64,000 nucleotides of DNA. It comes from Acidobacteriota bacterium. GTDB taxonomy: Bacteria; Acidobacteriota; Thermoanaerobaculia; Multivoradales; Multivoraceae. The position numbers and the translations under genes were made by a program. The notes under the pieces are model-generated. The model searched no databases, was not told where the DNA came from, and saw only the letters and a list, made by a program, of their open reading frames with translations. The stretch is from the NCBI GenBank assembly GCA_003388555.1, contig QQVD01000033.1:1-64000 (forward strand), given 5' to 3'. Each line of letters begins with the position of its first letter. The stretch's first letter is position 1. This document shows, piece by piece, positions 53,145 to 56,059 of the stretch.

Positions 53145-53850
53145 GCCGGTCGGCGCCGGCCGCAGCCGGACTCCCGGAGGTGACGCCAGGCGCTTCGACA
53201 GCCGTCGCCTCGCCGCCGCCCTGCGCCGGATCCGCCGTCGCCTCGAAGGCACTGCGCCGCCGGTCGTCACGCTGATCGCCGAGGCCGACCGCGATCCTTA
53301 CAAGGTCCTCTTCTCGACCCTGCTCAGCGCCCGCACCAAGGACGAGACCACCGCGGCGGCGTCGGCCCGCCTCTTCGCGGCCGCCCCGGATGCCCGGAGT
53401 CTCGCTCGCTTGGCCGCCTCCGAGGTCGCCGAGCTGATCTATCCGGTGGGCTTCTATCGCACCAAGGCCAGGAACGTGGTCGCCGCGGCCCAGATGCTGC
53501 TCGAGCGCTTCGCCGGTGAGGTGCCCGAGACCATCGACGAGCTGATCGAGCTGCCGGGCGTCGGGCGCAAGACCGCCAACCTGGTGCTCACCGAGGCCTT
53601 CGAGAGACCGGCGATCTGCGTCGACACCCACGTGCACCGGATCTGCAATCTGTGGGGCTACGTCGACACCGCGGATCCGCAGGCCACCGAGATGGCACTG
53701 CGGGCCAAGCTGCCGCGGCGACACTGGATCGATCTCAACAAGACCCTCGTGTCGTTCGGTCAGCAGGTCTGCACTCCGACCAGTCCGTGGTGCAGTCGCT
53801 GTCCGGTCGCCGAGTGGTGTCCGAGGATAGGGGTCGGCCGGACGCGTTGA
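53122..53850 (+). CDS. nth: Endonuclease III (DNA glycosylase/AP lyase)
   Basis: 242 residues from a GTG that overlaps the preceding gene by 23 bp; no later start gives a complete domain. The helix-hairpin-helix motif is LPGVGRKTANLVL with the catalytic Lys, and VDTHVHRICN carries the catalytic Asp. The iron-sulfur loop has the C-x6-C-x2-C-x5-C spacing (CTPTSPWCSRCPVAEWC) close to the C-terminus. The N-terminus also holds LLSARTKDETTAAA. It removes oxidised pyrimidines and cuts the abasic site in base-excision repair. It is the last gene before the DnaA-box-like array. Confidence 0.95.
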   Translation: MKSTSRSEPVGAGRSRTPGGDARRFDSRRLAAALRRIRRRLEGTAPPVVTLIAEADRDPYKVLFSTLLSARTKDETTAAASARLFAAAPDARSLARLAASEVAELIYPVGFYRTKARNVVAAAQMLLERFAGEVPETIDELIELPGVGRKTANLVLTEAFERPAICVDTHVHRICNLWGYVDTADPQATEMALRAKLPRRHWIDLNKTLVSFGQQVCTPTSPWCSRCPVAEWCPRIGVGRTR

Positions 53851-54247
53851 CAGACTTCGGGTCCAACCTGGACGCCGTGACTCCGCCCGCGGTGTCGGCG
53901 AGGGCTCGCCGAAGAGCGTTGCGCCCGGACCGGGTATCCACAGCGTCCTCCGCAGGGGATCCGCGCCCGCGGCGGGTGTTTTTCACAACCCAGGCCGGCG
54001 TTCCACAGGGATCTCCACACGGTCTTCCGCAGCGGTGGGCGAGATCTTCCGCAGCTCTCGAGGGCTTTCCGCCACGGATTCCTGCCGCGGCTCCACACCT
54101 TTTCCACAGGCGCGGGCGAGGACCACGCCGGCAGGCTCGGGAGAGGGGCAGAAGCGCGGGAGACGCCGTCCACAGGGTTTTCCACAGCAGCCGCGCCGGC
54201 AGAGCCCGCCATCCGGCGGGCTCAGCGGGCGGCGTCGTGCGAGGAGA
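53851..54247. other. Non-coding gap between nth and the M49-like peptidase, holding a DnaA-box-like array
   Basis: 397 bp between convergent genes. From 53934 to 54186 it carries many same-strand 9-mers with a TCCACA or TCCGCA core (listed under the origin feature). Frames through it are open but their translation is repetitive and Pro/Ser/Arg-rich, so I see no gene. Confidence 0.7.
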
Positions 54248-54278
54248 TCACGGAGCCAGCGCGGCTGCCTGTGGATAC
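53934..54278. other. Candidate origin of replication / DnaA-box array
   Basis: Same-strand 9-mers related to the DnaA box TTWTNCACA: GTATCCACA (53934), TTTTTCACA (53979, perfect), CGTTCCACA (53999), ATCTCCACA (54011), GGCTCCACA (54089), TTTTCCACA (54100, perfect), CCGTCCACA (54166) and TTTTCCACA (54178, perfect). Weaker TCCGCA-core copies lie at 53946, 54023 and 54045. Neighbouring members are 11-12 bp apart in four groups, one helical turn. An inverted copy, TGTGGATAC, at 54270-54278 lies just inside the M49-like gene and is the exact complement of the first box. Such clustering is what oriC regions show. Against this: no AT-rich unwinding element is obvious, dnaA and dnaN are not adjacent, and the flanking genes converge on it. 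It could instead be a DnaA-titration site. Confidence 0.55.
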
Positions 54279-56059
54279 TCGGGTCGGATGTCCACTGGCA
54301 CGTCGTCGAGCCTGGCGATGGCGCCCTCGAGCGCGGGCGTGGCGATGCCGTAGCGGTCGAGGAAGGCGGCGGTGCCGGCGTAGTCGCCGGTCGCCTGCAG
54401 CATCAGCATCTCCCGCAGCAGCGCCTCGATGCCGGCAGGGAAGAGCTCCGAATCGACGCGGAACCGGCCCTCCTCGTCGACCACCAGGGAGCCGTGCTCC
54501 AGAAGGTAGTTGAACTGGGAGACCACGCCGCGGCCGTGCGCCTCGTGCAGCCCGAAGCGGGCCGAGCGGAAGAGCCCGGCGACGTAGGTCGGCTCGAGGG
54601 TGGCGCGCAGCGAGTTGTCGATCTCGCCGCTGTCGATGAGCCTCAGGATGTTGTAGACCCCCATCACGTCCGCCTTGGCCTCCTCGAGGGTGGAGTAGAG
54701 GTCGCGCAGCTCGAGCCGCACCTCGGTGTCGCGCCCGTCCTTGCGGATCTTGCCGGGGCCGAGGCCGTGGCTGAGCTCGTGGTGCAACACCTCGGCGAAG
54801 AACGCCTCGAAGGAGACCTGCTCGGCCTGCTCGCCGGAGAGCACCCGCTGGGCGATCGGCACCAGGATCTTCTCGTACTTGGCCCGCATGACGTTGCGCA
54901 GCAGCACCTTCTTGGACCCCTTCTCCTCGCGCACCCGCTCGTCGTTGGGCAGGTTGAAGGCGGTGGTCTGCACACCGGCCTTGCTGTCGCCGCCGACGAA
55001 GACGACATCGACGACCCGCATCGGGCTCTCGGTGCCGCGCTGCAGGTTCTTGTGCTCGTCGGGGATCGGCAGGCCGCGTTCCAGCGTCGGCAGCAGCGCC
55101 TTGAAGCGCTCCAGCTCTGCCGACTGCTGCGGCAGGTCGACGGTGACGAAGGCCTCGAAGGCCGCCTTGTAGCCGAACAGCGAGTCCTCGTAGACCTCGT
55201 AGGGGCCGATGGTGACCTCGACCGGGGCGTCGAGGTCCATCCAGGCGAGGTCGCTCTCGTAGTAGTCGTCGCTGGCGAAGGCGTCGGCACGCAGCTCGAG
55301 GTAGCGGCGCAGCGACGCGTTCCCGGTGCTCGCGGCGGCGCTGCGCAGCAGGGCGGCCGCGGGCTCGAGCCATTCGCGGTAGACCACCGAGTACGGCTCG
55401 GCCACCAGGCCCGCCTCGGGCCCGCGCCGCACCACGGTGTACAGGGAGGTCATCGCCTCGGCCTGTTCTGGATGCTCGGCGATCCAGCCTTCGAGCTCCT
55501 CCCTGGTCAGGTCGGTGGGGTAGTAGCCCGCTCCTGGTGGGTGCGGCGGTGCGCCGTCGACGAAGGGGTGCATGTCGTCGAGGCGATCCCATGGACCGAA
55601 GTTGACCTCGAAGTACTCCCGCACGGGTGGTGGCGCGTCGGCGAGCGCGGCACGCATCTGTGGGTTCTCGGTCCACACCTGGCGCAGGAAGACCTCGTCC
55701 ATCAGCCGGGCGGCGCGGATCAGATCCCCGAGCACTGCACGTTCGGAACCAGGTACCCCGGAGAGGTCGGCATCCAGAGAGGTCGGCTCGAACTGCGCCA
55801 GGCGTTCCTCGACCGGCGGCTGCAGTCCGGCGTCGGGCCCGGCGTCGGCCGCCGCGCCCTCGCCGGTGGCGTCGCCGCCGCAGCCGGTGAGCAGGAGGAG
55901 GCCGGCGACGAGGGCGGCGGCCGCAGAGGGAAACCGACGACTGCCCCTCGGCGGCTTCGTCGTCGATCCGAGCGCCGACCGGTGGGGTCGGTCCGCTCGC
56001 TCCCACAGGTCCGGTGCGATGCGATGCGACGGAGCGCTGGCGTTCGTTTCCTGGTTCAC
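54248..56059 (-). CDS. Dipeptidyl-peptidase III-like (M49-type) lipoprotein
   Basis: 603 residues from a GTG with AGGAGG 8 bp upstream. A lipobox (LVAGLLLLTGCGG) sits near residue 60. The zinc site is EVLHHELSHGLGPGK near residue 430 with a second element LEEAKADVMGVYN near 470. These correspond to the HEXXGH and EECRAD elements of M49 peptidases, but the first is the shorter HELSH form. Upstream, FNLPNDERVREEKGSKKVLL and MRAKYEKILVPIAQRVL match the bacterial DPP III-like group. It is probably an envelope exopeptidase acting on peptides, and zinc-dependent. The C-terminus overlaps a DnaA-box-like 9-mer. The LolA-like gene lies upstream on the same strand. Confidence 0.85.
   Translation of the reverse strand: MNQETNASAPSHRIAPDLWERADRPHRSALGSTTKPPRGSRRFPSAAAALVAGLLLLTGCGGDATGEGAAADAGPDAGLQPPVEERLAQFEPTSLDADLSGVPGSERAVLGDLIRAARLMDEVFLRQVWTENPQMRAALADAPPPVREYFEVNFGPWDRLDDMHPFVDGAPPHPPGAGYYPTDLTREELEGWIAEHPEQAEAMTSLYTVVRRGPEAGLVAEPYSVVYREWLEPAAALLRSAAASTGNASLRRYLELRADAFASDDYYESDLAWMDLDAPVEVTIGPYEVYEDSLFGYKAAFEAFVTVDLPQQSAELERFKALLPTLERGLPIPDEHKNLQRGTESPMRVVDVVFVGGDSKAGVQTTAFNLPNDERVREEKGSKKVLLRNVMRAKYEKILVPIAQRVLSGEQAEQVSFEAFFAEVLHHELSHGLGPGKIRKDGRDTEVRLELRDLYSTLEEAKADVMGVYNILRLIDSGEIDNSLRATLEPTYVAGLFRSARFGLHEAHGRGVVSQFNYLLEHGSLVVDEEGRFRVDSELFPAGIEALLREMLMLQATGDYAGTAAFLDRYGIATPALEGAIARLDDVPVDIRPEYPQAAALAP

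Follow-up and report, generated by a model that had tools for sequence, protein, structure and literature searches.

A phased DnaA-box cluster outside the replication origin of an Acidobacteriota bacterium, and its possible role in DnaA titration

What is a dense run of DnaA-box-like sites doing between the ends of two converging genes, and could it be an origin of chromosome replication? The run lies in the window, by which we mean the whole stretch of 64,000 nucleotides analysed here, on contig C33 of an Acidobacteriota assembly (6.8 Mb in 74 contigs, 98.8% complete). An initial annotation had proposed either a candidate oriC or a site of DnaA titration.

The array and its setting

The sites fall in a gap (53851-54247) between a gene for an nth-like endonuclease III (HhH-GPD; 53242..53850, plus strand, start codon uncertain) and one for an M49-family peptidase with a lipoprotein-like N-terminus (54248..56059, minus strand), whose closest named carriers include many Acidobacteriota, several of them labelled Thermoanaerobaculia. 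Both genes converge on the array, their ends at 53850 and 54248 bearing out the arrangement first described. Within the gap, GC3 is 0.68-0.75 as against 0.88-0.91 in the flanking genes and coding signal is absent, and a protein-coding source for the repeats was dismissed for want of that GC3 signal. The gap holds no match to a sigma-70 promoter and none to Rfam, so that a known structured RNA was not recognised there. A GC-rich inverted repeat with 17-nt arms and a 4-nt loop (54194..54231) sits between the gene ends; it is plausibly a transcription terminator for the converging genes, and is probably separate from the array.

The array itself (53934..54186) is composed of eleven DnaA-box-like 9-mers, all on the plus strand, of which eight end in CACA and three carry a TCCGCA core. 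It opens with the CACA-ended GTATCCACA (53934..53942), followed by TCCTCCGCA (53946..53954), a weaker box with a TCCGCA core and a G at position 7, and by TTTTTCACA (53979..53987), which ends in CACA and matches TTWTNCACA exactly. The CACA-ended CGTTCCACA (53999..54007) and ATCTCCACA (54011..54019) come next, then two copies of the TCCGCA-core box TCTTCCGCA (54023..54031 and 54045..54053). The remainder all end in CACA: the weak GGCTCCACA (54089..54097), CCGTCCACA (54166..54174), and two copies of TTTTCCACA (54100..54108 and 54178..54186), strong boxes that are exact matches to TTWTNCACA. The three perfect boxes claimed at 53979, 54100 and 54178 are therefore genuine, and every other site that had been listed was likewise recovered where it was placed, including an inverted copy of GTATCCACA on the minus strand (54270..54278), which falls within the final codons of the M49 gene and may be there by chance.

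How unusual is such a concentration? Pattern searches, on which all our genome-wide statements are based, found that TTWTNCACA is matched exactly just seven times in 6.8 Mb, and that the array accounts for three of these matches. Over the 253 bp of the array, one strand carries 10 TCCRCA cores where 0.10 would be expected from their density in the remaining sampled genome; the highest count is 3 in each of the other stretches sampled, namely the remainder of the window, 120 kb of the contig bearing dnaA, and 560 kb of a relative (G010). Using a weighted cluster score, the array reaches 36.3, as against 10-14 for the best cluster in each of 15 order-3 Markov genomes of 6.8 Mb; the weights were set post hoc, with the array already seen, a choice that has no bearing on the TTWTNCACA and TCCRCA counts. 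This is a DnaA-box cluster far beyond chance, and the strongest seen in this genome. The initial impression that nothing similar occurs elsewhere holds for the window, but not for the genome, where contig C60 carries a second strong array (5 TCCRCA cores, the next highest count) and other contigs carry weaker ones.

The start positions of all eleven sites fit a single period of 11.05 bp across 244 bp (R=0.94; p about 0.0002 if sites are placed at random), and the fit persists (p about 0.005) under a null that leaves the 11/12-bp groups intact and shuffles just the longer gaps. At 10.5 bp, R falls to just 0.27, so that the register is one of about 11 bp and is mismatched to the helical repeat. 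The 11/12-bp spacing noted at the outset is thus correct, and can be put more strongly, since one register embraces every site. We infer that the register reflects DnaA protomers packed on successive 9-mers rather than the repeat of B-DNA. Tandem repetition was also considered: the spacers between boxes differ in sequence, and since they are not repeated, the array is not a tandem duplication.

Where replication begins

Having the top box-cluster score in the genome (the C60 array scores 30, and no cluster in the 20 kb surrounding dnaA exceeds 11.6), the array might be taken for the chromosomal origin, or for a second one. This we regard as very improbable indeed. The genome has a single canonical dnaA (Bac_DnaA_C, 1.7e-28), on contig C22, adjoining dnaN and a mutY-like gene, and the cumulative GC skew of that contig reaches its minimum at ~88-89 kb, at dnaN/dnaA, rising afterwards. 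Around the array, C33 shows positive skew to the left (+0.035) as well as to the right (+0.013), with no turn. The same picture emerges from G010, a complete genome of the same family, in which the sampled skew minimum is at dnaA, the change of sign falls inside the 20-kb piece holding dnaA, and nth lies 1.38 Mb away. Nor does the array offer an AT-rich unwinding element or an easily melted stretch when 50-bp stabilities are compared: its lowest-stability dG is -74.6, against -69.8 and -68.0 in the two gaps beside dnaA of the same genome, both of which hold easily melted stretches, as do the dnaA-dnaN gaps of two relatives of the same order, G040 and G037 (best dG about -61 to -63).

With the skew turning at dnaA/dnaN and no melted stretch in the array, the array is not the origin: this lies at dnaA/dnaN, with the array outside it. 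Of the features by which an oriC is recognised, the array has the DnaA-box cluster and lacks both the GC-skew minimum and the AT-rich unwinding element, and the proposal of a candidate oriC falls with them. The refuting outcome named in the initial annotation, which included a skew minimum far off and a better box cluster at that place, was borne out for the skew: the minimum indeed lies elsewhere, on another contig, although the origin's box cluster is weaker than the array. A likeness to bacterial origins nonetheless exists, in that phased, same-direction strong and weak boxes resemble a DnaA-oligomerisation region, such as G040 and G037 have between dnaA and dnaN; it is in lacking an unwinding element and a skew turn that the array differs.

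Relatives and other arrays

Comparison with relatives bears on the identity of the boxes. A phased triple of TCCRCA cores separated by five or six nucleotides (TCCRCA-N5,6-TCCRCA-N5,6-TCCRCA, i.e. 11/12-bp spacing) was matched in 6/41 genomes, and the matches in G040 and G037 are within the dnaA-dnaN gap. In one genus (g2), TTTTCCACA, TTTTCCGCA and CGTTCCGCA occur 11 bp apart immediately upstream of dnaA, so that the array's box variants match those found next to dnaA in relatives. Together, these observations tie both motif and phasing to DnaA in this order, and the phased triple in the relatives' dnaA-dnaN gaps supports reading the array's sites as DnaA boxes. The position of the array is another matter. 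None of 23 genomes of the same family carries the array downstream of nth, and it is also absent from the M49 locus in order-level relatives; conservation at the site is thus lacking among these relatives.

Other clusters in the same genome were also seen. The C60 array (C60:18450-18690; L007:1480-1720) includes TTCTCCACT repeats at 11 bp and has a register of 11.1 bp (R=0.89, for hand-picked sites). It lies between divergent genes, upstream of a deoxynucleoside kinase gene whose G010 counterpart lies 48 kb from dnaA, which places C60 probably near the origin; yet none of the 28 relatives whose upstream DNA was usable has this array ahead of the kinase gene. An smc-like gene, identified by eye, is preceded by three DnaA-box-like sites, TTTTCCGCA among them (C2:204738-204777; L039:1501-1540), and upstream of a gene for a sigma-70-like factor (C12:10702-10810; L002:1415-1523) are two palindromic sites containing TGTGCACA, together with a TTTTCCACA flanked by inverted TCCGCA sites. 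Just upstream of dnaA are a box pair and an inverted box. Of the nine TTTTCCRCA sites of the genome, two fall in the array, two on C60, and one each just upstream of dnaA, upstream of smc and in the C12 cluster.

Similar arrays were observed beyond this genome. A member of a sister genus (G003) has two more phased TCCRCA arrays away from dnaA (L248:1201-1244 and L246:1501-1533), at loci unrelated to those described here; judging from such comparisons, array positions appear to turn over. In two sister families of the same class (f13 and f14; L258-L272), a phased DnaA-box array occupies the same place in 15 genomes, namely the recN-tsaC / gamma-carbonic anhydrase-hisS gap. Its typical form is three TTTTCCACA-type boxes exactly 12 bp apart; in most genomes it falls around locus position 1500, and in several it adjoins AT-rich DNA. 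The contigs of two of these genomes (G126 and G101) have no GC-skew turn around it; this conserved DnaA array away from dnaA is possibly a regulatory cluster.

What the array may do

DnaA clusters outside the origin are known in depth chiefly in E. coli and B. subtilis. The array agrees with such clusters in its excess of boxes over chance and in its location outside the origin, and most closely resembles those of B. subtilis, which likewise pack about ten boxes into a short stretch between genes, outside oriC, with several clusters per genome; the gcp/ydiF cluster, too, lies between two gene 3' ends. The differences are that B. subtilis belongs to another phylum, that the boxes here are GC-richer variants (TTTTCCRCA), and that binding, ATP preference and an effect on initiation have been measured there, whereas here they would be predictions.

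We favour, as probable, an ectopic non-origin cluster that acts by titrating DnaA or by modulating initiation, through cooperative assembly, and, of the two options first proposed, titration is the one that best survives. The identity and phasing of the boxes, their lookalikes at dnaA-dnaN in two relatives, and the convergent intergenic position all point this way. Head-to-tail DnaA protomers would nucleate on the strong boxes at 53979, 54100 and 54178, and would extend cooperatively from there across the weaker CCACA/CCGCA boxes, all in the 11-bp register, to give a nucleoprotein complex occupying a convergent, promoter-free gap. Such a complex could hold a sizeable share of the free DnaA, perhaps favouring ATP-DnaA, and this sequestration might delay or tune initiation at dnaA/dnaN, the true origin, jointly with the C60 array and the smaller arrays on C12 and upstream of smc. 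Binding, cooperativity, titration and the effect on timing are all inferred, and should titration be all that the array does, what its sequence predicts extends as far as binding. An action of this kind, independent of position, fits with arrays that are not conserved in place.

Could the array do more than sequester DnaA? In a site like datA or DARS, DnaA would assemble and its nucleotide state would be changed, by ATP hydrolysis or ADP release. The essential boxes of E. coli datA all face the same direction (PMC5742627), as do those of the array, which is also intergenic and apart from oriC, though spacing and number differ. The DARS half of this comparison fares worse: its three-box core has box I opposed, at fixed spacing, to boxes II and III (PMC5742627), and since the array boxes are uniform in direction, a DARS-like core is rejected, the sole opposed box lying 84 bp off and within a gene. 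Moreover, the activities of E. coli datA and DARS2 depend on IHF/Fis sites, and an IHF motif is not known for this lineage. Overall, we consider a site of this kind unlikely. Alternatively, DnaA or another bound protein could regulate transcription of nth, of the M49 gene, or of an unseen antisense or small RNA. B. subtilis DnaA does regulate genes from some of its clusters (PMC4447404), and the C60 array does occupy upstream DNA that separates divergent genes. However, the gap offers neither promoter match nor RNA family, and with both neighbours converging the array sits at gene ends, making transcriptional control quite unlikely here. That the sites belong to a protein other than DnaA, or are a functionless decaying repeat, might be suggested by the unconserved position and by the mismatches of several boxes in their first three bases; we judge this highly improbable given that the same motif and phasing recur at dnaA-dnaN in relatives, that the spacers are not repeated, and that the register is kept across long gaps.

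DnaA titration by a cluster away from the origin thus remains our preferred reading, and the array is a real feature of a known kind, a DnaA-box cluster, with an unusually clean 11-bp register. A limited search of the open-access literature found no paper on non-origin DnaA clusters in Acidobacteriota. With considerable doubt, we might go further: perhaps several strong DnaA arrays, specific to this lineage and shifting about the chromosome, control initiation and outcompete an origin poor in boxes. The 244-bp array, with its continuous 11-bp register, would then template one DnaA filament on double-stranded DNA and serve as a remote timing element holding more boxes than oriC. In any case, an 11-bp register across 244 bp makes a direct prediction for how DnaA packs on double-stranded DNA, and an array so clearly phased suggests that sites of DnaA titration or processing may be widespread, and findable from sequence alone in uncultured bacteria.
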